Notes: generated by a model not told the origin, from the letters alone. DNA of 40,047 bases from a virus (IMGVR_UViG_3300015374_000024:1-40047); one strand, 5' to 3'. Shown: positions 3,602-40,047, counted from the stretch's first letter. Translations and numbers: made by a program.

Positions 3602-3737
3602 CGGGTACCTCCGAAACGTAGATGCAGTGCAGCCGGTGGCGACGGAGCAGCGTCTTCAGTCCGGCGCGCAGGGCGTGGATGCCGTCGACATTAGGCCCCG
3701 GTCGTAAGTGCACGATGTAAGTAGGTCTATCAGTCAT
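3507..3737 (-). CDS. Conserved 76-aa phage small protein
   Basis: It starts at an ATG overlapping the stop of the PP-loop gene (ATGA). The sequence MTDRPTYIVHLRPGPNVDG followed by IHALRAGLKTLLRRHRLHCI matches a small protein I have often seen in alphaproteobacterial phages (pattern V-D-x-I-x-A-L-R-x-x-L-K-x-L-L-R-R-x-G/R-L), of unknown function. Its last 95 bases overlap the downstream ParB-like gene in another frame. Because the recognisable domain lies before the overlap, I regard the gene as real. Confidence 0.7.
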   Translation of the reverse strand: MTDRPTYIVHLRPGPNVDGIHALRAGLKTLLRRHRLHCIYVSEVPDGQNSARVIRRMDRSKNAPRKFLQSKSRSAA

Positions 3738-5017
3738 GCCACCAACTCCGATACCGGCGTCACTGCCATTTCCTTCTCGTACCGCTCGCGCGCCTTGGCC
3801 ACGGTCAGGCCGTGCATTCCCGGTTGCTTGCGGTCCTTGTAGTCGCCGCGCATGGCGATGACCAGAAGGAATTGCCATGAGATCCCGGTGATCGGATGCG
3901 GGGCGCGCGGCGCGATGAAGTCTTTGGTCTTATCATGGTGGCCGTCGATCCAGCGTTTCACCCGAGCGGCAATCTCTCCGCGATACGGTTGCGGGTGCTT
4001 CTCGATCCACTGCCGGATGAACGCTGGCCACGACATGCCAGCCGGTTTATCGGGGACGCCGCCGTAGGCGTAGAGCTCGGTCTGCGAATACCGCGCTGCG
4101 GTGGCCGCGCCGGGGACGCGGTTGCTCATCTTGTCCCAAATCTCGGGGAAGCAGATGGCGAACGTCCACAGTCCGCGCATCGGTTCCTCGCCGTAGGGCG
4201 GCGCGCAGCGTTGATCGTTATGGCTGATGCCCGCCGCTTCCATCACGTCATAGGCCGCGTTGTGATCCCAACCGAACAGCTTAGGCGCGGTCCAGACGTC
4301 AGCCGTCGACCAATCGTAGATCGGATAGACCTTGACCAGATTCTCCGCCCACGGGCGGATATATGGTCGCGTATCGGAGTGGCGCATGAGGATGGCGCGC
4401 GTCCGCGTCAGGCTCTCGTCAGCGCGAATGCCCATGACCATCGCGGTCCTGCCGTACTGAAGTTTTTCAAACAGAAGCGGGACACTGTCCGGCATGGTCG
4501 GGCGCTTCTCTCGTTCAGCGGGGAAGCCCTCGACCTGATCGAACGTGATGGCCTCGGGCGGTAACGGACGAACCCACTTAGCCTCGTCCTCCGGAGCCCA
4601 CGGATACCAATAGGGCTGCTTGCGGGTGCAGGCGTTGCGGTGCTGGATCGGCAGACAGTACCAGCGCAACTCGAGCCCCGGCATGGCGGCGACCCGGCGA
4701 ACGTAATCCTCTGTTTCGTATGGGATGGCTTCCTCGTCGTAGTGAAACACGATGAGGTTCTTGCCTCTGGCCTGCGCCGCATCCAGAGCCAGATGGAGAC
4801 AGACCGTCGAGTCCTTGCCGCCGCTGAAGGACACCGCCACCGTGTCGAACAATTTGAACGCCTCGTCCACGCGCTCGCGCGCCAGATCAAGTACGTTCTT
4901 GTCGATGGCTTTTTTCTTGGCGATCTTTCCGGTGGAGAGCGACGCGCGATCGATATCCGGAGCAACCAGATCGTCGCCGGAAAAGCCCTCATCGGTTACG
5001 GTAACTGTTTCCTTCAT
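3734..5017 (-). CDS. PAPS-reductase-superfamily PP-loop protein (IbrA-like)
   Basis: 427 residues. The PP-loop SGGKDS (65-70) in VSFSGGKDSTVCLHLA binds ATP or an adenylylated substrate, as in PAPS reductases and related adenine-nucleotide alpha-hydrolases. It is followed by FHYDEEAIPYE, RADESLTR and a YPIYDWSTADVW segment, which are typical of phage and prophage members. It is much longer than assimilatory CysH (about 240), with a C-terminal extension containing HPITGISWQFLLVIAMRGDY. Two bases separate it from the cupin gene upstream, and it overlaps the 76-aa gene downstream. The pairing with ParB domains suggests an IbrA/IbrB-type regulator or a nucleic-acid or nucleotide modification system; sulfate assimilation is unlikely. 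Confidence 0.85.
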   Translation of the reverse strand: MKETVTVTDEGFSGDDLVAPDIDRASLSTGKIAKKKAIDKNVLDLARERVDEAFKLFDTVAVSFSGGKDSTVCLHLALDAAQARGKNLIVFHYDEEAIPYETEDYVRRVAAMPGLELRWYCLPIQHRNACTRKQPYWYPWAPEDEAKWVRPLPPEAITFDQVEGFPAEREKRPTMPDSVPLLFEKLQYGRTAMVMGIRADESLTRTRAILMRHSDTRPYIRPWAENLVKVYPIYDWSTADVWTAPKLFGWDHNAAYDVMEAAGISHNDQRCAPPYGEEPMRGLWTFAICFPEIWDKMSNRVPGAATAARYSQTELYAYGGVPDKPAGMSWPAFIRQWIEKHPQPYRGEIAARVKRWIDGHHDKTKDFIAPRAPHPITGISWQFLLVIAMRGDYKDRKQPGMHGLTVAKARERYEKEMAVTPVSELVA

Positions 5018-20367: not shown

Positions 20368-21582
20368 TCAGTTAAAGAAATACCACCATCCGCCTTTCGG
20401 TGTGTACGTCACAACAATGATGCCTTGGAAACCAACAGCACCGGTTGATGCCGCGCCGCCGCCAAACGGTATGCCGCCGCCGCCGCCCGCGCCGCCGTAG
20501 CCAACCGATGCGCCGCCATTGCATCCGGCCAATACCCCGGTGGTGCCGCTGCCACCGGCACCGCCGCCGCCGCCTGATCCGTGCGTGGCGTCAAATTCCG
20601 TACCCATAGAACCGGCACCCCCGGTGGGCGCATTCGTGTTTGTAGTGGCACCGGCACCGCCGCCACCGCCGCCGCCCGCGCCGGGGCTTCCCGATGTGTT
20701 AGCAGGACCGCCCGCGCCGCCACCGCCGCCGCCGAATTTGTTGCCGCCCGTGCCGCCGCCCGCCCCTGTGGCGTTGCTTCCGCTACTGCCGCCACCGTTG
20801 CCGCCGCCGCCGCCACCGCTGAAATTGCCGCTGCCCGACCCACCGCCAGCGCCGCCATTGCCGTTGGGACCACCGGCACCGCCGCCCGCGCCCGCGCCCG
20901 CGCCGGTCGCATTGGTGCCACCGTTGCCACCGGAAAATTTTGTGCCGCCCGATGCCGGAAGCCCGTTTGCCGCCGCGCCACCAATCGCCGTGCCGCCCGG
21001 TGTGGTGCCGCTGCCGCGCTCCGCGCTGACGCTTGCTGAATTAAGCGCCGTGCCGTTGAACCAAGTATGCCCGCCATTGCCCGACGTGCCGGAAGTCGAC
21101 GCGGTGCCGCCGACGCCAATGGCAACTTGCACTGACGCGGCGGGGGTCAACGCTAGATTATTTCCTTTGGAATATGCGCCGCCGCTGCCACCCGACCCCG
21201 GTTGCGTTCCGTTATTGCCGGTGCCGCCGCCGCCGCCGCCAATACACTCCACGGAATTTGCGTCAGCGGGCCAATCAGCCGGAACGGTGTAAGAGGTTGT
21301 CCCCGTGCTGGTGATGAACGTGACGGTGGCAAAGTCGTAACGTAACTCATCGCCAATATCCGGGTGCCAATTTGGCGTGGGGAGCCGCCACAGATCGCGT
21401 TCATAGTGAAGCGATCCTATGGCCATCGCCCATAAAAAAGCATCGGCATCATCACGATCATCGAACCAGCCGCGCCATTTAATGAAGCCGTCATTCAGCC
21501 GCGCCGTCAGACGAAAGCGCGTCTTATCCGTCCCCTGTGACGGTGCCCATTGCGAACGCGATACTTTTGGCAGAATAAGCAT
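20368..21582 (-). CDS. Glycine-rich tail adhesin/fibre protein
   Basis: 404 residues from the ATG at 21582 (ATGA overlap with the fibre gene). The N-terminal 110 residues form a small domain (RFRLTARLNDGFIKWRGWFDDRDDADAFLWAM). After a TVPADWPADANSVECIG strand the protein becomes almost pure Gly/Ala/Ser/Thr with poly-Gly runs and NGG/GAGG repeats, ending in GGWWYFFN. This is typical of phage Gly-rich tip domains such as the polyglycine-helix adhesins that bind outer-membrane proteins. The low-complexity DNA could recombine to change host range. Confidence 0.8.
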   Translation of the reverse strand: MLILPKVSRSQWAPSQGTDKTRFRLTARLNDGFIKWRGWFDDRDDADAFLWAMAIGSLHYERDLWRLPTPNWHPDIGDELRYDFATVTFITSTGTTSYTVPADWPADANSVECIGGGGGGTGNNGTQPGSGGSGGAYSKGNNLALTPAASVQVAIGVGGTASTSGTSGNGGHTWFNGTALNSASVSAERGSGTTPGGTAIGGAAANGLPASGGTKFSGGNGGTNATGAGAGAGGGAGGPNGNGGAGGGSGSGNFSGGGGGGNGGGSSGSNATGAGGGTGGNKFGGGGGGAGGPANTSGSPGAGGGGGGGAGATTNTNAPTGGAGSMGTEFDATHGSGGGGGAGGSGTTGVLAGCNGGASVGYGGAGGGGGIPFGGGAASTGAVGFQGIIVVTYTPKGGWWYFFN

Positions 21583-22430
21583 CAGGCTTCCGTGTTCACG
21601 GCGACCACGTCCCACTTTGTATCGGTGGCGTTATAAATACAGGCGACATATGTGATCTTATTTATCGCTGTCGTCGTCGGAATGACCGTGGCGATGGCGC
21701 GAAAGATTGCGTTCCAGTTCAATGCCCGCGCTGTGCCGTTATCCTTGAAACGAAACATGAGTTTGTTGCCGCCGAGCGGTGTGCCGGTCGGCGCATTGAT
21801 GGCGCAAGCTGCCGCCAGCGCCGTGCGGACATAATAATCAGACGTGGAAATATCCGGCGACACATCACCCGATGCCGCTGACGATAGGCGAGGGTCAATA
21901 CGACCCGTAATCGCACCGCTGTTAACCGCGAAACCGCCCGTTAGTGAAATGTTGCCGCTGATGACATAATTGCCCAATGTAAGCGTGAGCGTGTTGGCTG
22001 AATGCGTCAGCAATACATCGCCGTTATCCCAATTGATGACGCTGCCAAGCGCCAGATAAAGATCGGAAAATGATTTCGTTGGCGAACCGAGCGCCGCTCC
22101 ATCATTGACGGTTGGGACAAGGCTGCTTACGACGCCATCAGTATAAATATTGTCCAGTTCGCCCATCGTGCCGATGGCGACGTAGCGCCAGATACGTTGC
22201 ACGGCACCTTTCGTGACCGTGATCTTGTAAGCGCCGCCTGCGACGTGAAATGCAAACGATCCATCGGCTTCGCCTGTGAAAGAATTGCCGAGAGCAACCG
22301 TGCCAGCCCTGTCGGAAAAAATATTGGCGGGCAAGCCCGTACTTTCCAGCCGTACTTCCACGTCTGGCAATGTTAGAATATTTCCGGCGTCGTCCGTCGC
22401 CGTCGCTTGAAACCGTGCCAGCGTTGCCAT
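21582..22430 (-). CDS. Tail fibre protein
   Basis: 282 residues. N-terminal MATLARFQATATDDAGNILT and VEVRLESTGLPANIFSDRAG, then ADGSFAFHVAGGAYKITVTKG is the standard N-terminal domain of phage tail-fibre proteins attaching to the tail tip. The centre has beta-helical LGSVINWDNGDVLLTHSANT repeats typical of fibre shafts. It follows the tip protein gene. Confidence 0.8.
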   Translation of the reverse strand: MATLARFQATATDDAGNILTLPDVEVRLESTGLPANIFSDRAGTVALGNSFTGEADGSFAFHVAGGAYKITVTKGAVQRIWRYVAIGTMGELDNIYTDGVVSSLVPTVNDGAALGSPTKSFSDLYLALGSVINWDNGDVLLTHSANTLTLTLGNYVISGNISLTGGFAVNSGAITGRIDPRLSSAASGDVSPDISTSDYYVRTALAAACAINAPTGTPLGGNKLMFRFKDNGTARALNWNAIFRAIATVIPTTTAINKITYVACIYNATDTKWDVVAVNTEA

Positions 22431-30348: not shown

Positions 30349-30774
30349 TCACACGATGGTAAATGCGCCGGGTTCTCCTGACGCCCTGAATTTCGCCTGC
30401 GCCGCCATCTTGTCTCCGACCGTGATGGGAGCATCCAGCCCGATCAGATAGGCGTTGAAAACGAAACTAGATCCACCGGGAAACACGATACGACGAGGCT
30501 TCAATGTTGTCGTGTCAAATTCCGCCAGAAGCAACGCGTATGTATCCGTGCGGAAGTTTAGGTCTACCGCGATCTCACCGCTATTATTGAGGCCAAGCAC
30601 GACCTCCCGCCATTCATTGGGCGCGCATTCGTGGCCAGCGTCGACCGCGTCGCGCGTCAATGGCGGCAAGGTGAGGGCCGTGACCTCCGCCAATGTGGAC
30701 CAGCCAATGGGACTGTTGCTGTCTCCCGTTTGAAACAGCGTCCCGTAACCGATCTTGGCGAGCGTGGTGACCAT
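30349..30774 (-). CDS. Tail tube protein (copy B)
   Basis: 141 residues; LAKIGYGTLFQTGDSNSPIGW and the later GDKMAAQAKFRASGEP match the tail-tube (Phage_tail_2) pattern. It is a paralogue of the adjacent 30782-31225 protein: both start MV-x-T-x-A-x-IGYGT and share W-x-x-L-x-EVT. Two tube-like proteins in tandem are unusual. Confidence 0.8.
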   Translation of the reverse strand: MVTTLAKIGYGTLFQTGDSNSPIGWSTLAEVTALTLPPLTRDAVDAGHECAPNEWREVVLGLNNSGEIAVDLNFRTDTYALLLAEFDTTTLKPRRIVFPGGSSFVFNAYLIGLDAPITVGDKMAAQAKFRASGEPGAFTIV

Positions 30775-30781
30775 TAACGGA

Positions 30782-31225
30782 TCACCCCGGAGGCGGCGAG
30801 GCTATCGTGATGGTCTGCGCGCCACCGACCTTGAACGTGCAGGTCGCGGTCATGCGGTCATCGATGGGCGACTCTGTCTCATAGCCCTTGACCAGACCTA
30901 GGAATTGCCAAGTCGTTCCGTTCGGCCAAGTGATGAGCACCGCCACCTTCGTGCCTGAAGTCTGCAAACCCATCAGCAATATTTCCGTGGCGCTGCCGGG
31001 GATGCGGTTCATGCCGACTGCGGCCTCACCACCCTCGATCAGCCCGGAAATATATTCGCGTGTCCGGTTGTCTGACGTGAAGTGCGTTGCCTCGACGTCA
31101 TCGACTTCCATGTTGGGCGGCGTTACTTCGGTGACTTCCTGCAACCGAGTCCATACCCCCGGCGAACTCCCGTCGCCAACATCAACGGTGGTGCCGTAAC
31201 CAATGATAGCCCGCGTAGCGACCAT
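30782..31225 (-). CDS. Tail tube protein (copy A)
   Basis: 147 residues; MVATRAIIGYGTTVDVGDGS, WTRLQEVTEVTPPNMEVDDVEATHF and DDRMTATCTFKVGGAQTI are typical tail tube features. Well-formed RBS AGGAGAGAGAG. Probably the main tube subunit, with copy B as a decoration, alternative tube or distal subunit. Confidence 0.85.
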   Translation of the reverse strand: MVATRAIIGYGTTVDVGDGSSPGVWTRLQEVTEVTPPNMEVDDVEATHFTSDNRTREYISGLIEGGEAAVGMNRIPGSATEILLMGLQTSGTKVAVLITWPNGTTWQFLGLVKGYETESPIDDRMTATCTFKVGGAQTITIASPPPG

Positions 31226-32237: not shown

Positions 32238-32606
32238 TCAATGCAAATCATCCTGCCGGACGGCGGCGAGCAGGCGTAATCCGCTTCTGCGGCCCACTTC
32301 TTCTACGAGGATGATATCGTAAACCTTTGCGCCAATGATCGTATCAGGAGAGTTGCCCTGCGTCGGATAGACGATGCGATCCAGCGGCGTCACATCAGCG
32401 ATTGCAGCGGACCAGCGAACGGTGAACTCCACCTGTGCGCGGGCCACCAATTGATCGGACACAAACCGTTCATCACCTTGCAGCGGCATCATGCGCGCCG
32501 GTCGCGTCGATAACGTCACCCACGTCTCGATGGGTTCACCGGACGGCGATTGCGTGATGGTGTGCCGTTGAATTGTGATCCGTCTATCGAGTTGCCCGCC
32601 CCTCAT
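32238..32606 (-). CDS. Head-tail joining protein
   Basis: 122 residues from the ATG at 32606 (ATGA overlap with the upstream gene). GGQLDRRITIQRHTITQSPSG, RMMPLQGDERFVSDQLVARA and DRIVYPTQGNSPDTI are characteristic of the phage head-tail joining (SPP1 gp16-like) family, a ring at the neck. Marks the border between the glycan cassette and the tail genes. Confidence 0.85.
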   Translation of the reverse strand: MRGGQLDRRITIQRHTITQSPSGEPIETWVTLSTRPARMMPLQGDERFVSDQLVARAQVEFTVRWSAAIADVTPLDRIVYPTQGNSPDTIIGAKVYDIILVEEVGRRSGLRLLAAVRQDDLH

Positions 32607-33406
32607 TTGAGCATTCTCCACAGCGTCCCGTCGACCAGTTCGGTCTCATTGAACTGGCAATAGGCGAGTGAATGCAACCACTTATCCCGCTCCGGGTAGA
32701 TAGGACTTTCTACCTTTGAGAAATCCGTTTGCCCCATGAACTTCGCCGCCGAAATGTCATCGACGAAAACCGGGCAACCGAACACCACGGCCTCGACCGC
32801 AGCAACGCTGCCATGCGTCACGAGGCAATGCGCGTTTTTCAGTTCTTCATGCAGCGGCACTTTTGATTCCTTGCTGCGCAGGATGATCTTCCGATCGGTG
32901 TGCTTCTTCAGTTCATTGATCGTGTTCTGGCACCAGTTCTTGTCACAGAACAAATTCCAGTAATCCGGCAGCGTATCAGCAACGATGATATGCGAGCCGC
33001 TCTTATTCCACGGCTTAAGTGAACCGTTCAGCTTCAGGCTTTTCCAGCGATCATCGGGAACGTCATCGACCGATTTCATTTGAAACGCATTCAGGTGCCA
33101 GCGGTAGTAGCCGCCGGGAATTCCCATGTCGCTTCCTTTTGGAAGCCAAGTCGCGAACACGCGCCGCAAGTAACCACGGTCCCAATAGATGAAGTCGCGC
33201 TTGTTCTTGATCCATTTTTCATACCAAGGCCGCAGGAAGGGCATACAACCAACGATGGGAATGGTGTCGGGTGCGAGCTTGTCCAGTTGCGTTGGATCAT
33301 AGCGGATCACTTTTCCTATTTTGCCGCCTATGCGTTCGAACAGATCCAGCTTGAATTTCTTCAACCCCGGAGGAATGAACAGCACGGTTTTTTTAATATC
33401 AATCAA
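32603..33406 (-). CDS. GT-B-like capsule-type glycosyltransferase
   Basis: 267 residues from a TTG at 33406 that overlaps the previous stop (TTGA) with GGAGAG upstream; an ATG at 33433 is an alternative. The C-terminal part carries KIILRSKESKVPLHEELKNAH then CLVTHGSVAAVEAVVFGCPVFV, a pattern of capsule polysaccharide/GT-B enzymes where G-S-x-x-A-V-E contacts the sugar nucleotide. The N-terminal part (VLFIPPGLKKFKLDLFERIG) is Rossmann-like. Phage forms exist; acceptor unknown. Confidence 0.7.
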   Translation of the reverse strand: MIDIKKTVLFIPPGLKKFKLDLFERIGGKIGKVIRYDPTQLDKLAPDTIPIVGCMPFLRPWYEKWIKNKRDFIYWDRGYLRRVFATWLPKGSDMGIPGGYYRWHLNAFQMKSVDDVPDDRWKSLKLNGSLKPWNKSGSHIIVADTLPDYWNLFCDKNWCQNTINELKKHTDRKIILRSKESKVPLHEELKNAHCLVTHGSVAAVEAVVFGCPVFVDDISAAKFMGQTDFSKVESPIYPERDKWLHSLAYCQFNETELVDGTLWRMLK

Positions 33407-34083
33407 TGCTCTCTCCAATGCCGCTGCACCCATCCTAGGTGCCGATACATCGATGGCTTTTTCGCACCGATGAATGCGACAATGCGCGCGTCAGTCGGGA
33501 AAACCAAACCGGCAGGCCATCCCGGTTTCTGGAAAGCATAGATGCCGCTCGGGCTACCGCCCTTCCAGCCGGAAGCGTTCGGCAGCTTGTGCCATATCCA
33601 TCCCTGATCGTCGGGGAATTCATAGAATGGCGTCTTGCGCGCCTTCTCCACCGAGAAGTCATCCCACACTTCAGGATGCTTCCCCGCCCGCAGCATCGTT
33701 ACGCTGCCGTTGAACGGGTTAGGATTATTAGAATTCACACCTTGCAGGATCAGGAAGTCTTCCGGCCTGTCGAACAGCGGATCGAGCGGCCCCGTAATCA
33801 CCGCATCCAGATCGAGGCTAATGATCCTGCCACGAAAACCATTGGCTTCCTGCCAGCGTGGATGGAATTGCCGTAACCGGCAGAAGCAATGCCGCTGCGT
33901 CAGCACCGGATCGGCGATTGGCCGCACCACGATTTCAGTCGGTAGGCCGACCAGCGGTCCTTGCGTGAACACGTTGAAAGTGAACGGCTGCTTCAGATGC
34001 TTTTTGACGCCGCTGTAGAGCTTGCGGATATCCAGCGTCGTGTATTTGGTGCCCCAAATCCAAGTGATGATATCTAGCGCCAC
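33403..34083 (-). CDS. GT-A glycosyltransferase (GT8-like)
   Basis: 226 residues from a GTG at 34083 (a TTG at 34101 is an alternative). IITWIWGTKYTTLDIRKLY, GRIISLDLDAVITGPLDPLF (a DxD-type DLDA for metal and sugar nucleotide) and NPFNGSVTMLRAGKHPEVWDDFS form a GT8-like core common in phage and bacterial glycan clusters. Start choice is uncertain. It overlaps the upstream methyltransferase gene. Confidence 0.75.
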   Translation of the reverse strand: MALDIITWIWGTKYTTLDIRKLYSGVKKHLKQPFTFNVFTQGPLVGLPTEIVVRPIADPVLTQRHCFCRLRQFHPRWQEANGFRGRIISLDLDAVITGPLDPLFDRPEDFLILQGVNSNNPNPFNGSVTMLRAGKHPEVWDDFSVEKARKTPFYEFPDDQGWIWHKLPNASGWKGGSPSGIYAFQKPGWPAGLVFPTDARIVAFIGAKKPSMYRHLGWVQRHWREH

Positions 34084-34646
34084 AGCACACCGAGCCCGCA
34101 ATCGCGCTTATCGCCCTCACGTGTACCGTGGATGATTTCAGTGTGCCGGTATTCTTTCTTGATCTGGTCCCAAAACTTGTAAACCTCGATATGTTTCTTT
34201 TCTGGATGAGGCCGTCTGTGGTTGATGTCGTGCAATGCCACGATCCGCGCCATTCGTCCGTAGTTTTCAAAGTCTTTGGCGATATACGGCACGGTATGAT
34301 TGCCGTCGATGAGGCAGGCATCAAATGGCCCTAGCGGCTCGACTTGCTTGATGATTTCTGGATCGGTGCTGTCGCCAAGAAACAGGTGGACGTCATATCC
34401 TTTGGCCATTAGGGCTGCGGCGGATTCCTTCAGATGCGGCTCGCTATCCTTGAATGACCCATCCCCGCGCGGAAGATCGACACCGACAATGCGTGAGCCT
34501 TTCGGCAGACTTTTCCCGATATGCCAGAGCGAACCGCCGAACTTGCATCCTATTTCCAGATAGCTGCGGACTTTCTCGCGCTGAAACAGCACGATCAGTT
34601 CAAACAACTCACCCTTGTCTTGCAGTACCGCCGTTTCGCATTTCAT
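34074..34646 (-). CDS. SAM-dependent methyltransferase (paralogue)
   Basis: 190 residues. SYLEIGCKFGGSLWHIGKSLPKG (motif I), GDSTDPEIIKQVEPLGPFDACLIDGNHTVPYIAKDFENYG and IVALHDINHRR. Close in pattern to the 18362-18958 methyltransferase. Within the glycan cassette it may methylate a sugar. It overlaps the GT9-like gene by 38 bases. Confidence 0.8.
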   Translation of the reverse strand: MKCETAVLQDKGELFELIVLFQREKVRSYLEIGCKFGGSLWHIGKSLPKGSRIVGVDLPRGDGSFKDSEPHLKESAAALMAKGYDVHLFLGDSTDPEIIKQVEPLGPFDACLIDGNHTVPYIAKDFENYGRMARIVALHDINHRRPHPEKKHIEVYKFWDQIKKEYRHTEIIHGTREGDKRDCGLGVLWR

Positions 34647-35421
34647 CTTTCAAATATCCGAGTGCCGGTTCAATCACTTCGCCAACGCTGATCCTGCTCA
34701 TCGCCGCTTGGCAATGTAAACACGGCTTGAAATTACCGCAGGCTTCCGCGCCGCCCGTCAAAGCCGTCTGACCTTCATACCCGACCACTGCCGGGGGGAT
34801 GAAGCCGCCATACAGCACGACCGCAGGAACACCGACCGCCGCCGCCGCATGATGCAATCCACCTTCCGGTCCGATGTAAAGCGCCGCGCGTGACAGCGTC
34901 GCTATCGCCTTGCGGAAGTCGCCAGCATCGATGGTGAGTGCTTCCTTCAGAATGCGTCTGGAATTCATATGCCTGAATTGCGCGACCGCATAACCGCGCT
35001 GCGTCAGCATGTACGCGACCTCGCGGTATTTATGCTCGCCCCAATCCTTGTTGGGTGCCACGGTCTTTTGCCACGGCACGTTCGGCTCAATCAGCACAAA
35101 GCCGGGAGCGAATAGCTTACTGAAATTGATTTCCTCTGGAGAAAAATAGAATTCACCCGGCTTCGCCTTGAAGTCATAATGCCAAATCCACTTGTCGCCT
35201 TCCTGATGATTGTAAAGGCGATGGCCTTTGCAATGATTGATCCACTCTATGTTGTTATCGAACTCTGATCCCGGTGGCGCGATGTTGGGATTATGCTTGA
35301 ACATTTCCGCCGACCACGGCCCCCAAGTGATCCTGCGTCCATCACCGAAGGCTATTCGCTTCCCGCGCGAGGCAGCGCCCCGCGCGAGACCTGTTGCGAT
35401 GATATCGTCGCCGTAACCCAT
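34609..35421 (-). CDS. GT9-like glycosyltransferase (heptosyltransferase fold)
   Basis: 270 residues. MGYGDDIIATGLARGAA resembles the G-x-GD of GT9 N-termini; FVLIEPNVPWQKTVAPNKDW and YIGPEGGLHHAAAAVG followed by VPAVVLYGGFIPPAVVGYEG match the GT9/ADP-heptose:LPS heptosyltransferase sugar-nucleotide site. A conserved CGNFKPCLHC near the end is frequent in these phage proteins. Starts right after the upstream stop. Confidence 0.8.
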   Translation of the reverse strand: MGYGDDIIATGLARGAASRGKRIAFGDGRRITWGPWSAEMFKHNPNIAPPGSEFDNNIEWINHCKGHRLYNHQEGDKWIWHYDFKAKPGEFYFSPEEINFSKLFAPGFVLIEPNVPWQKTVAPNKDWGEHKYREVAYMLTQRGYAVAQFRHMNSRRILKEALTIDAGDFRKAIATLSRAALYIGPEGGLHHAAAAVGVPAVVLYGGFIPPAVVGYEGQTALTGGAEACGNFKPCLHCQAAMSRISVGEVIEPALGYLKDEMRNGGTARQG

Positions 35422-35889
35422 CTATCTTTTCTTCGAGGGCGTCGGCACCGCTCCGCTCGGGACCGCGATGACGATCCATCCGGTCGTTGCCGTCCATGCC
35501 GTTTTGACTTCCCATTTCATATCCGGGGAGGTCGGTGGAATAGGCAGCACAATCGGCGGCGTCGGGCGCGGATCGGTCGGCCCCCAAATATAGACCGGTT
35601 GCCAGCCGCCGCTGTCAGGCGGCAGCACGATGGGATGCGTCGGTGTCGGTGGCGGCACCGGCAAGCCCTGATCTGGATGCGTGTCAGGAACTCCGTAGTC
35701 CGGATCAACCGGCGCACCGGGAGGAAGCGGATAGTAAATCGGATGCTCCGGGTGCGGCAGATCGCCGGGAAGCGTGTGATCGGGCTTGGGCGGTGCGCCG
35801 GTTGGTGGTTGCGGTTGCGGCAACTCATGATCGGGGTGAGCGCCGCTAACGCCGCCGACCGGCGTAATCATTGCTAGAAACGATTTCAT
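35422..35889 (-). CDS. Proline-rich structural-type protein
   Basis: 155 residues from the ATG at 35889, 8 bases after GGAG. HPDHELPQPQPPTGAPPKPD followed by units of the form HP-(D/E)-(H/Q)-x-(L/I)-P repeated, then PTPTHPIVLPPDSGGWQPVYIWGPTDP and a C-terminal strand-rich segment with KWEVKTAWTATTGWIVIAVP. Such PIVLPP-repeat proteins are common among phage genes near the capsid module and may be a head decoration or fibre. No enzyme motif. Confidence 0.6.
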   Translation of the reverse strand: MKSFLAMITPVGGVSGAHPDHELPQPQPPTGAPPKPDHTLPGDLPHPEHPIYYPLPPGAPVDPDYGVPDTHPDQGLPVPPPTPTHPIVLPPDSGGWQPVYIWGPTDPRPTPPIVLPIPPTSPDMKWEVKTAWTATTGWIVIAVPSGAVPTPSKKR

Positions 35890-35902
35890 GGGCATTTCTC
35901 CT

Positions 35903-36712
35903 TTATGCTGCTCGCGCCCCGCCCCGCACAGCGTTGTAGGGACCGAACGCGACAGACGGAAGATATTTCTCGACGGTGTAGCCCGCTGCCTGCGCTTCAG
36001 CCCACAAACTATCAACGAACGGCTGCACGTCAGGGCGCTTATGAATTCCAGCGGCGGCTTGCCGGTTCCAGTGCTTCTGTCCGCTCAACTGCAAACGCGG
36101 CAGCGCATATTTCAGATGCGGCTGCGTCTCAACCTTGGTGAAGTGGATGATCTTGATATCGGGATCAGTCAGTGATGCGTAAGTCTCACCATCGAGGCAG
36201 TTCCAGTTATTCTTGAAGCGACCTGTCACCTTGGCGGCGGCTCCGCGGACTTGCCGATACATGCCCTCTGTTCGCCGCAGAGTCTCAAACGGTGGCAGAA
36301 CCTGTTTCATTTTTTCACAGTCGAACAGGATGACGCAGGTTGTCTTTTCATCTTTTGCCAGAAGCGCCTTGCCGTTCATAGGCTGATCCCACAACTCGGC
36401 AATGTCAGCCATCAGGACTTGATCCACGTCCATGTAGATCGCCTTGCCGGAAAAATTGCAGATATACGGAATAGCCCAACGGAACGCGGAGAATGGCGTC
36501 GCCCAACTGATCGTATTCCAGCCTTCGTTCTTGGCAGGATTGGAATACCACGGTGACGTTGGATCTCGAGACAGCCGCATCCATGTGAGCTCCACCTGAC
36601 GCGAGGCGTGTTTGCGTAATGTATATTCCAGCATCGCTGCCGCCTCGGCATCCTCGCCATTGGCGCTGCATCCCACGAACAGACGGATCGTGCTGGCATT
36701 CGGTATCGTCAT
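35903..36712 (-). CDS. GT-A glycosyltransferase (GT8-like)
   Basis: 269 residues from the ATG at 36712 (ATGA overlap). IRLFVGCSANGEDAEAAAML, FSAFRWAIPYICNFSGKAIYMDVDQVLMADIAEL (DVD motif) and the late NWNCLDGETYASLTDPDIKII with HFTKV are a GT8-like pattern. Divergent from the other GT8-like gene. Acceptor unknown. Confidence 0.75.
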   Translation of the reverse strand: MTIPNASTIRLFVGCSANGEDAEAAAMLEYTLRKHASRQVELTWMRLSRDPTSPWYSNPAKNEGWNTISWATPFSAFRWAIPYICNFSGKAIYMDVDQVLMADIAELWDQPMNGKALLAKDEKTTCVILFDCEKMKQVLPPFETLRRTEGMYRQVRGAAAKVTGRFKNNWNCLDGETYASLTDPDIKIIHFTKVETQPHLKYALPRLQLSGQKHWNRQAAAGIHKRPDVQPFVDSLWAEAQAAGYTVEKYLPSVAFGPYNAVRGGARAA

Positions 36713-37383
36713 AGCGTCCACCTTTTCAGAGCGTCATCTACGGTAATCTTCGGAAACGCATTCAGCGTCGAAGCCGGGGAGCAGTTCACCACGTCTATGT
36801 CCAGTGCTTTAAGCTTGGGCGCGATGCCTGCAAAGCAAGTGCGCCAGAGTTGGTAGTTCCCTTCCTGCGGATTCCATAGCGGCTCCGGATGGTTACCGTG
36901 CCAGTGCACCTTTCCCCCGATCGCTCGCATATCGAAGCCCAACAGCATGATGCCGGTTATGCCGAACTGCACCAATAGGTTCGTCATCTGGAAGCCACCG
37001 TTGCCGCCCGAGCCGACAACGCCGGGGGTGTCGACCAGCAAGTCATTGGAGTGAACGGTCGGGCTGTGCAAGGTCTGCACCGTGATCTTCTTCACGTCCG
37101 GAAACATGCGCGCGGCATCCTTGTCCTGCGTCAGCTTCAGGCCAGCGAAGTCTTTCGCGCCGTTACGCAATCGCCACCACTGAAGATCGCATGAGTAGAG
37201 TATCTCCGCCCACGGACATAACCGGTGACTTTCATTGATGGCGATGACGTGGATGCGATCCTTCAGTTTTTCCACGTCCTCTTTTTTCACGGACGGTCCC
37301 GCGCCGATGATGGCCGCGCATTCGCCGCGCCAATCCTGCCACCAATCGAACGTGGCCTTGCCTTTCTCATGCAGATCGATCAT
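36709..37383 (-). CDS. DUF115/GT42-like sugar-transfer protein
   Basis: 224 residues. CAAIIGAGPSVKKEDVEKLK, then HVIAINESHRLCPWAEILYSCDLQWW and GGNGGFQMTNLLVQFGITGIMLLGFDM, KVHWHGNHPEPLWNP are typical of a phage family related to MptE/DUF115 and sialyltransferase-like Rossmann folds. The G-x-GPS loop binds the nucleotide. First of the glycan enzymes, directly after the giant repeat gene (ATGA overlap). Family placement is tentative. Confidence 0.65.
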   Translation of the reverse strand: MIDLHEKGKATFDWWQDWRGECAAIIGAGPSVKKEDVEKLKDRIHVIAINESHRLCPWAEILYSCDLQWWRLRNGAKDFAGLKLTQDKDAARMFPDVKKITVQTLHSPTVHSNDLLVDTPGVVGSGGNGGFQMTNLLVQFGITGIMLLGFDMRAIGGKVHWHGNHPEPLWNPQEGNYQLWRTCFAGIAPKLKALDIDVVNCSPASTLNAFPKITVDDALKRWTL

Positions 37384-40047
37384 GCCGCATTTCGTCGTTT
37401 CTCTGAGGGCATGTCAGGTCTAGCCTCTGATGGCGTATCCGGTCGCCTGTCGACTGCCGGATTGGGCGAGGCCCGCGCCGAATTGGAAACCCCCGGATCA
37501 ACGCCGGTTGTGGGACGCCGCCGAGTGCTTTCACCGATCTGATGCCCTGCGCCGGTCCCGTAACCTATCCCGGCACCGCTCCCGAAGCAGCCGTAGATGA
37601 TCGCCGCGTTCGCCTGCGCAGTGCCGTTGCTGGTCGCACTGCCGGTGCCAACCCCGGCACCTAGCCCTATACCATTCGCCCTGCCCGTGCCGCTCGCTGC
37701 GCCGTTGGCCGTGGCCAGCGCCACCACTGCGCCGGTTGCCGTTCCCGCGCCAGCGCCCGCGCCTGTGGTGGCAGCAATGGCTCTGGAATTGCCGGTCGCC
37801 GTTCCGGTCGCTGAACCGGCCCCGATGGAAACCGGCAGATACGCCCCGGATCCAGTGCCGACACCTGAACCTGACCCGACGCTGCCCGCAATCGCTGAAG
37901 CAAATCCGGTCGCCGTGCCGTTGCCAGAGCCAGAGCCGGTCCGATCCACAAGCGCGTTGGCATTTGCCGATGCCGTGCCGGTACCATAACCGCTGCCGAT
38001 GCTCGCTGACGAACTGGCTGCGCTTCCGGTCCCTGCGCCTGACCCTGAACCAATACTCCCGGCAAGCGTCAGACTGTTGGCCGCGCCTGTGCCGTTGCCC
38101 AAGCCCGCGCCAACCGCGACGGACGGGCTGAGCGCCGCACCCGTCCCTGTTCCTGCACCGCTGCCGACGCTCGCGGTGACTGCCGGTGCAACGCCTGTGC
38201 CGGTGCCGGTCCCCGACCCTGATCCTATCGACGCCGATGAACTGGCGGCGGCACCTGTGCCGCGACCGCTGCCGCTGCCGACCGCCGCCGCGATGGTCGA
38301 ACTGTTCGCGGCAGCTGTTCCGACGCCCGCGCCAGCACCGACGCTCGCATTCAGGCTTTGAGCATTCGCGCTACCACTGCCGTTGCCAGAACTAGCTCCG
38401 ACGCTGACAGCCAGCCATTGCCCGATGCCAGTGCCGGTCCCGTTAGCAGAGCCAGCGCCGACGCTCCCGGCCAAAGCCGAGCTATTCGCCGCCGCCGTGC
38501 CATTCGCAGACCCGGCACCGATACTTCCGACAAGAGAAGCACCATTGCCCGTGCCGGTGCTGGTCGACGAACCAGCGCCGACCGCGCCCGCTGCCGATAG
38601 CCCGCTGGCACCGCCTGTTCCCGAGCCAGCACCGACGCTGCCAGCAAGTGATGCACCGTTTGCCGCGCCCGCGCTTGTGCCTGTGCCAGCGCCAATGCTG
38701 GAAAGGTTCGCGTTGGAATTCGCGTTCGCCGTTCCGGTACCGGAGCCCGCACCGGCAGCGGAGACATTCGCGTTCGAATTGGCGGCTGCGGTGCCGACCG
38801 ATGATCCCGCACCGACGGCGGTCTTGATCGCGAGGCTGTTTGCCGAGCCGGTGCTTGTTCCTGATCCGCTGCCGACATTGCCACCGGCAGATAGATCGAC
38901 TTCAACGCCTTCGACTTCGAACCATGAAACGGAAATTCTATTAATCGGCGCGGCATTGCCTGTTGCCGCACCGTTTCCCGAACCAGCGCCGATTGAGGCA
39001 GCAATAGCAAGACTGTTCGCCGCGCCTGTGCTTGTCGCCGATCCTGCGCCGACGCTCGCGCTTGACGCCAATCCTGATGCCGTGCCGGTGCCTGAACCGG
39101 CACCAACTGACGCGGCGATGGACAGACTGTTGGCCGCGCCCGTACTGGTAGCTGATCCGGCACCGAGACTTGCCGCGTTACTGTTGGCATTGGCTGTGCC
39201 GGTGCCGATGGCAGAACCGGCACCAACGCTGACAGCGTTGGCATTGGAGTTCGCGCTACCCGTACCCGTTGCAGAACCAACACCTTGAGCACTGAAGTTT
39301 GAACGACCGTTTCCGCTGCCGGTGCCGATTGCCGAACCAGCGCCGATACTCGCCGCAATTGCCGCGCTGTTCGCCGCCGCCGTTCCAGTGCCAGAGCCAG
39401 AACCGACGCCGCTTCCGGATGCTACTGCATCGGCCTGAACGCCTTCGACTTCAGTCCACGAAATGACAATGCTGGCGGGGATAGCTGCATTGCCGACGCC
39501 GGTTGCCGCGCCATTACTTGATCCAGAACCTACGCCATCTTTGACAGCGTTGCTGTTCGCCGCGCCTGTGCCGGTTGCCGATCCGGCCCCGGCAGTCGCT
39601 CCCATTTCCTTGAACGCGACATAGGCGCTGGCATAGATCGCCGAGACATAAGTCGGATCGGATGCCGAGTTCGTGCCGGTAAATATACGATGCTCGGCGC
39701 GAGCGCACATCTCGGCGGTCGTGCCGGTGGTCGCGCTATTTCCGTTCGCCCATGCCGTGAAGTTCGTCGTCGGCGTCAGATTGGTATTATTGCCGACTTG
39801 AGAGGCAATGCCGCGAACGCGCAATGTCTCGATGTTCGCAGTCGTTACATCTAGTGAGGCGGGATCAGCGCCGGTATTGTTGACTAACGTGCCGGGAGCG
39901 CCTTCGATAGCGACTGTATTGCCCGACCCGATAGAAAACTTACGCGCCGTCAATCCGCTGGCATCGACCAATGTGCCGCTGCCGAACGTCGCGCGGATCG
40001 TGCCGCCGCTGGAAAGCGCGCTCGTCGCCTTGCCGTACCAGATCGAA
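37380..40047 (-). CDS. Giant Gly/Ala/Ser/Thr-repeat protein (5' partial)
   Basis: The frame is open to the right edge, so the N-terminus lies outside; at least 888 residues are in the window. The visible N-terminal part (SIWYGKATSALSSGGTIRAT, RVRGIASQVGNNT, TAEMCARAEHRIFTGTNSA) resembles Ig-like domains of phage structural proteins. Then follow several dozen degenerate units of the type GAGSATGTGAANS, broken twice by a related module, ISWTEVEGV and VSWFEVEGV. The C-terminus is Arg/Pro-rich with a repeated PSE(A/K)RPD-type motif. It heads the operon of glycan enzymes. Role inferred as fibre, decoration or surface protein; the Ser/Thr content makes it a possible O-glycosylation target. Confidence 0.7.
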   Translation of the reverse strand, partial: SIWYGKATSALSSGGTIRATFGSGTLVDASGLTARKFSIGSGNTVAIEGAPGTLVNNTGADPASLDVTTANIETLRVRGIASQVGNNTNLTPTTNFTAWANGNSATTGTTAEMCARAEHRIFTGTNSASDPTYVSAIYASAYVAFKEMGATAGAGSATGTGAANSNAVKDGVGSGSSNGAATGVGNAAIPASIVISWTEVEGVQADAVASGSGVGSGSGTGTAAANSAAIAASIGAGSAIGTGSGNGRSNFSAQGVGSATGTGSANSNANAVSVGAGSAIGTGTANANSNAASLGAGSATSTGAANSLSIAASVGAGSGTGTASGLASSASVGAGSATSTGAANSLAIAASIGAGSGNGAATGNAAPINRISVSWFEVEGVEVDLSAGGNVGSGSGTSTGSANSLAIKTAVGAGSSVGTAAANSNANVSAAGAGSGTGTANANSNANLSSIGAGTGTSAGAANGASLAGSVGAGSGTGGASGLSAAGAVGAGSSTSTGTGNGASLVGSIGAGSANGTAAANSSALAGSVGAGSANGTGTGIGQWLAVSVGASSGNGSGSANAQSLNASVGAGAGVGTAAANSSTIAAAVGSGSGRGTGAAASSSASIGSGSGTGTGTGVAPAVTASVGSGAGTGTGAALSPSVAVGAGLGNGTGAANSLTLAGSIGSGSGAGTGSAASSSASIGSGYGTGTASANANALVDRTGSGSGNGTATGFASAIAGSVGSGSGVGTGSGAYLPVSIGAGSATGTATGNSRAIAATTGAGAGAGTATGAVVALATANGAASGTGRANGIGLGAGVGTGSATSNGTAQANAAIIYGCFGSGAGIGYGTGAGHQIGESTRRRPTTGVDPGVSNSARASPNPAVDRRPDTPSEARPDMPSEKRRNAA
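37540..39600 (-). repeat. Low-complexity repeat tract
   Basis: Degenerate repeats of about 45-60 bases coding for GAGSxxGTGxANS units. Codons vary between units, so it is a protein-level repeat kept under selection rather than a perfect DNA satellite. Proline-rich readings on the other strand are shadows. Confidence 0.85.

Follow-up and report, generated by a model that had tools for sequence, protein, structure and literature searches.

A candidate glycosylation cassette among the late genes of tailed phages and its loose association with repeat proteins

Maf proteins glycosylate flagellin in the cytoplasm, and the serine-rich repeat adhesins of bacteria are glycosylated by enzymes encoded beside them. 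The closest phage precedent is that of the mycobacteriophages Che8, Corndog, and Myrna, which, according to PMC12363180 and PMC11256854 (both citing Freeman 2023), glycosylate their virion proteins, including the capsid and tail tube. Here we describe a comparable arrangement in IMGVR_UViG_3300015374_000024, a 40,047-base IMG/VR virus record that is a genome fragment (the whole stretch is hereafter the window), in which the gene for a modular repeat protein (REP) precedes a cassette of five glycosyltransferase-like genes, a methyltransferase gene, and a gene for a proline-rich (Pro-rich) protein. A first-pass annotation of the window had regarded such a design in a virion protein as new; the principle is already known, being established in the above mycobacteriophages (PMC12363180, PMC11256854). 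The best explanation of the locus, judged from its homologs and gene order, is that it belongs to a widespread class of glycosylation cassettes among the late genes of tailed phages. We put the probability that the cassette glycosylates virion proteins in the cytoplasm at roughly 60%, with the activity, acceptor, and glycan all predicted from the genes.

The cassette and its recurrence in tailed phages

The genes of the cassette and its flanks lie on the minus strand, in the order (from 40047 to 32238) REP, DUF115/GT42-like, GT8-like, Pro-rich, GT9, methyltransferase, phrog_1962 glycosyltransferase, GT-B-like, and Hc1. Neighboring genes overlap slightly or lie a few bases apart, and an ATGA overlap joins the stop codon of REP to the start of the DUF115/GT42-like gene. 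Order, strand, and coordinates thus agree with the operon-like overlapping run (32603 to 40047) that the first-pass annotation had placed ahead of the head-tail joining gene. That gene encodes the head closure protein Hc1 (32238 to 32621; PF05521 [Phage_HCP], 1.3e-18; phrog_25), which is the first conserved head-tail protein past the cassette. The window showed no DNA-level similarity to sequenced phages and no match to the PADLOC defense models.

The DUF115/GT42-like protein (36709 to 37383) matches phrog_4603 (“alpha-2,3-sialyltransferase”; 1.5e-41), and its structural model (predicted local distance difference test score [pLDDT], 95.6) has CstII as its top Foldseek match (E 2e-4; TM-score, 0.55). 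The Pfam profile PF01973 is matched by 36 of 45 DUF115 relatives, with the window protein itself falling under the cutoff, and weak profile matches link DUF115 to GT42 enzymes and to the Maf structure 5mu5. On these grounds the protein belongs to the DUF115/GT42-like family (phrog_4603, PF01973), with a putative transferase activity. The heptosyltransferase-like GT9 protein (34609 to 35421; PF01075, 8e-11, above the cutoff) is 31 to 33% identical to its homologs in CcrColossus and CcrPW. The one methyltransferase annotated in the run (34074 to 34646) is also upheld by an above-cutoff match (PF13578, 2e-7); it is an S-adenosylmethionine-dependent enzyme with a weak match to the NanM sugar O-methyltransferase, and perhaps O-methylates a sugar. 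Family assignments are solid for these three proteins and for Hc1, and moderate for the remaining genes. Hence, the earlier count of five glycosyltransferase-like proteins is firm for two and softer for three. The GT8-like protein (35903 to 36712; likely start, ATG 36712; longest open reading frame [ORF] from 36721) has a subthreshold PF01501 match (4.8e-4; 20.2 bits, cutoff 24.3) and aligns with a GT8 protein of the viral contig L004 that is 35% identical to CcrColossus gp129. The second protein previously called GT8-like (33403 to 34101) has phrog_1962 (“glycosyltransferase”; 1.5e-9) as its sole match, and this role model also matches a protein beside Hc1 in phage S20 and P7 HdmD. The GT-B-like protein (32603 to 33433) has a subthreshold match to DUF6716 (0.0034) and homologs in the cassettes of other phages, among them CcrColossus gp128 and its CcrPW counterpart (E down to 7e-18).

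A DUF115 profile search of IMG/VR viral contigs recovered at least 524 relatives, and role models were applied to the 80 best loci. The resulting counts are approximate because the simple codon-model gene caller misses genes (it called no glycosyltransferase in 9 of the 80) and most contigs are incomplete. A recurring order, with the glycosyltransferases between capsid and head-tail genes in most of the 80, was seen in which terminase, protease, portal, and capsid genes are followed by DUF115 and its companions, usually further glycosyltransferases, and then by Hc1, tail terminator, neck, and tail genes. Among the 71 loci with a called glycosyltransferase, 30 are flanked by capsid or terminase genes upstream and tail-joining genes downstream, and in 36 the contig covers one of the two flanks. 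In Tetraselmis viridis virus S20 and D3/PMG1, homologs sit at this same position, accompanied in D3/PMG1 by a methyltransferase and a GT9-like gene. In P1/P7, two DUF115-like genes (hdmB and hdmC) and a phrog_1962 relative (hdmD) belong to a C1-controlled “head morphogenesis” operon. The Caulobacter jumbo phages CcrColossus and CcrPW carry DUF115, GT-B, GT8, methyltransferase, and GT9 genes directly behind a 1,665-amino-acid (aa) nonrepeat tail fiber, and in the sheathed-phage contigs L004 and L017 a set of DUF115, GT8, GT-B, and phrog_1962 genes separates the sheath gene from the tube gene. A tight DUF115 profile run against 84,980 species genomes hit one alphaproteobacterial metagenome-assembled genome.

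The Pro-rich protein (35422 to 35895) is present as annotated, probably starting at ATG 35895, with its AAGGAGAA site, rather than at TTG 36015. Its PDHTLPGDLPHPEHPI core is nearly invariant (21 of 24 residues) where the remaining protein and the neighboring genes differ; tblastn found no homolog in sequenced phages. That it could be the specific acceptor is suggested by the near-identical core beside the cassette in L004 and L017, sheathed phages unrelated to that of the window; there the Pro-rich gene is followed directly by DUF115, GT8, further GT-B, and phrog_1962 glycosyltransferase genes. However, most of the 22 viral loci encoding the family, in unrelated phages, lack a nearby glycosyltransferase, which leaves this idea hardly probable; on the same count we rejected the protein as a constant partner of the cassette.

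The repeat protein and its relation to the cassette

REP (37380 to 40047) extends for 888 aa up to the contig edge, where its 5′ end is cut; judging from homologs, about 85 N-terminal residues lie beyond. The visible part comprises a partial all-beta N-terminal domain (39580 to 40046; by alignment, approximately residues 85 to 235 of the homologs), about 30 diverged repeats of about 20 residues (37602 to 39593; consensus, (V/I)G(A/S)GSGxGT(G/A)xA(N)..), and a C-terminal tail (37380 to 37601) ending in a basic Pro/Ser-rich stretch. The repeat is real: the period-20 residue autocorrelation has a z of 13.9, against a 99th percentile of about 3.6 to 5.3 in ordinary phage proteins. The epithet “giant” in the first-pass annotation is generous for an 888-aa protein, with about 85 residues missing. 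A search for an underlying DNA tandem repeat found none, so the copies are old. The composition is 21% Gly, 21% Ala, 16% Ser (138 of 888), and 10% Thr.

The full N-terminal domain of the family is all-beta and spans about 230 residues. Its predicted structure in the L004 homolog (pLDDT, 88.6) gave no significant fold match in the Protein Data Bank and resembles mycobacteriophage minor tail proteins in BFVD, including those of Tweety and Shauna1 (E 5.6e-5 to 2.9e-4). Domain scans found it on 17 other viral contigs, tblastn found none in sequenced phages, and the patterns used found none in the 84,980 species genomes. The C-terminal parts joined to it are repetitive in some proteins (TEAADT-type in L003, L004, and L041; LTNTAPVLGPA-type in L024/L047; Pro-rich in L040 and L048), nonrepetitive in L034, L035, and L038, and nearly absent in L005 and L006. 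Given these exchangeable C-terminal parts and the minor-tail-like model, REP is best read as a modular adhesin or fiber with an exchangeable tail part, presumably carried in the virion. L050 (1 to 4091), L053 (8572 to 10002), and L188 (1295 to 3277) also encode repeat proteins that share the 20-residue period of REP and end in a basic tail like its own; their N-terminal parts are unrelated to that of REP.

The adjacency of REP invites the explanation that the main job of the cassette is to glycosylate the Ser/Thr-containing repeats, yielding a glycoprotein fiber like the serine-rich repeat adhesins. REP overlaps and immediately precedes the cassette, Ser and Thr make up 26% of it versus 9 to 20% of five other window proteins, and period-20 repeat proteins lie just upstream of the cassette in members of the window's lineage as defined by tail genes (L050, L051, L052, L053, L139, L168, and L188). 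A sample of 80 loci, chosen by major tail protein and blind to both features, points the same way. A period-20 repeat protein stood upstream of the cassette in 6 of the 8 glycosyltransferase loci with visible upstream DNA (the window, L133 [the same as L053], L139, L167 [the same as L050], L168, and L188; L158 and L205, with one or two glycosyltransferases, lack it), and in none of the 36 complete loci that lack glycosyltransferases (Fisher 4e-6). These repeat-bearing loci are, however, confined to two clades of the tail-protein tree, both cassette-bearing, implying few effective events, so that the P value overstates their independence. In the DUF115 sample, repeat or collagen-like proteins occupied 6 of 11 slots with three or more glycosyltransferases versus 3 of 19 with one or two (P = 0.04, uncorrected). 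Collagen-like (G-x-y) proteins of 690 to 910 aa lie between portal and DUF115 cassette in L080, L082, L086, and L100, where the slot thus holds a different kind of long repeat protein.

The first-pass annotation had proposed a dedicated pairing of repeat gene and cassette, to be checked by its conservation in related phages, and the check fails in both directions. REP-domain proteins occur without a glycosyltransferase in the available flanks (some of them short) on 16 of the 17 other contigs. Conversely, a repeat protein is absent from 21 of the 30 complete cassette slots, including that of L049 with its five glycosyltransferases, and the same holds for the cassettes of S20, D3/PMG1, P1/P7, and CcrColossus/CcrPW. 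L004, the one REP-domain contig with glycosyltransferases, has the cassette and a REP-domain gene located elsewhere, and its sister contig L017 has the cassette and no REP-domain gene between its capsid and head-tail genes. The L004 repeats are poor in the candidate acceptor residues despite the glycosyltransferases (6% Ser, 11% Thr), and a comparison of the window with L053 shows a common G-rich frame in which the Ser and Thr positions are not conserved. As the main function of the cassette, modification of REP is therefore unlikely. What survives is a looser link, a weak lineage-level co-occurrence of proteins with an approximately 20-residue repeat and the cassette. Since most related loci have no long repeat protein, the cassette is probably not a dedicated partner of REP and decorates the virus particle in general. 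It is a doubtful proposal that in one, probably alphaproteobacterial, siphovirus lineage the capsid-neck slot holds a surface-display system of two parts, a rapidly swapped fiber of approximately 20-residue repeats and a glycosyltransferase and methyltransferase cassette that would coat it, making a mucin-like glycoprotein fiber on the virion.

Proposed glycosylation of virion proteins

In the reading that we favor, soluble glycosyltransferases, with the DUF115/GT42-type enzyme in the lead, would work in the cytoplasm while particles assemble, using nucleotide sugars of the host to build a glycan straight onto one or several virion proteins; this glycan would be short and possibly O-methylated. 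Gene position suggests a surface protein of the head, neck, or fiber as the acceptor, with REP as one candidate among others, sharing a variable slot with the cassette. A virion acceptor is likely because the glycosyltransferases sit, apparently cotranscribed, among virion genes; of the glycosylation link drawn in the first-pass annotation, this part holds, whereas REP as the dedicated acceptor does not. Family scans and hydropathy profiles of the cassette proteins revealed neither enzymes of sugar-nucleotide synthesis nor a flippase or other polytopic membrane protein (there is no multispan profile, and the highest single stretch lies within the GT9 core), which we infer is best fitted by sequential transfer of host sugars to protein. 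Furthermore, P1 pmgO, pmgP, and pmgQ are nonessential for plaques (PMC10695390), a dispensability that fits decoration better than assembly.

Several points weigh against virion glycosylation. The function of the cassette is predicted from its genes, and the capsid genes of the window lie beyond the contig, so that the likely acceptors are not open to inspection. No mycobacteriophage was among the matches listed when the window's five glycosyltransferases were compared with phages by tblastn, and the paper on the P1 virion proteome does not mention glycans. Phage glycosyltransferases can alternatively modify DNA or host glycans. For the host glycan, the cassette would alter the cell surface during infection or lysogeny, in superinfection exclusion or seroconversion, and the GT9, GT8, and GT42 families do act on lipopolysaccharide or lipooligosaccharide in bacteria. 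The lack of Gtr-like membrane genes, the position inside a late virion operon, and a slot conserved across phages, with the cassette also in large Caulobacter phages, make this decidedly unlikely. Modification of phage DNA, of the T4-like or hypermodified-base kind, has precedent in other phages, whose virus-encoded glycosyltransferases hypermodify DNA (Pyle 2024, as cited in PMC12619734). No base-hydroxymethylating or base-kinase family was found among the window proteins scanned (a subset of the ORFs of a partial genome), and the glycosyltransferase genes are grouped with structural genes; we consider it very improbable here.

Downstream of Hc1, the window encodes a tail terminator, a neck protein, two related major tail proteins, a tape measure protein, and a tail fiber. 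The major tail proteins are tandem paralogs (30349 to 31225; about 35% identical), a tandem also seen in L053. A Gly-rich 415-aa protein (20368 to 21615; PF21722 just under the cutoff) has a weak period of 20 and adjoins a 1,425-aa tail fiber, which bears three LamG domains and a Gp38-type adhesin domain. A PAPS reductase/DUF3440 protein of the phage moron type (3734 to 5017) is encoded close to a ParB-like gene.

Comparison with described systems

The resemblance to serine-rich repeat adhesins, drawn in the first-pass annotation, is confined to long repeats adjoining glycosyltransferase genes. REP, with 16% Ser, is not Ser-rich as they are, its genomic context is that of a virion gene, the pairing is not conserved, and Pfam and NCBIfam scans of the cassette recognized neither a GtfA/GtfB-type pair nor accessory Sec/export genes. 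Seroconversion (Gtr) modules differ in their polytopic membrane flippase or transferase, which has no counterpart among the cassette proteins by hydropathy. With the GT42 sialyltransferase/Maf superfamily (CstII, 1ro8; Maf, 5mu5), the DUF115/GT42-like protein shares the fold and aligned GPS...SG...G(F/I)D motifs, at 13% identity and with 224 aa versus the 666 aa of the Maf chain. Che8, Corndog, and Myrna, as described in the papers cited above, are alike in encoding glycosyltransferases that are either believed or shown to modify virion proteins, a role that is putative in the window. They differ in that the window's enzymes have no match there among those listed by tblastn, and in that the window combines five glycosyltransferases and a methyltransferase in one capsid-to-head-tail operon, a system read from its genes.

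Nothing relevant came up in the open literature on DUF115 in connection with phages, or on phage sialyltransferases in connection with capsids. What appears to be new, not being described in the literature searched, is the breadth and conserved capsid-neck position of the DUF115-type cassette, together with its loose tie to repeat fibers. Its nearest relatives are P1/P7 (hdmB, hdmC, and hdmD), D3/PMG1 (the orf7 region), S20, and CcrColossus/CcrPW, which share homologous enzymes, a position among structural genes, and the mix of DUF115, glycosyltransferase, and methyltransferase. They differ in having no adjoining GAGSxxGTG repeat protein and in the order and number of their glycosyltransferases, and function is putative there too. 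If the cassette does glycosylate virions, Gram-negative tailed phages, the models P1 and D3 among them, would commonly carry glycosylated proteins, with possible effects on phage stability, adsorption, and antigenicity. The “morphogenesis” genes pmgO, pmgP, pmgQ, and orf7 of P1 and D3 would gain a function, and a gene cluster that has long lacked an explanation becomes a problem that laboratory phages already available can address.

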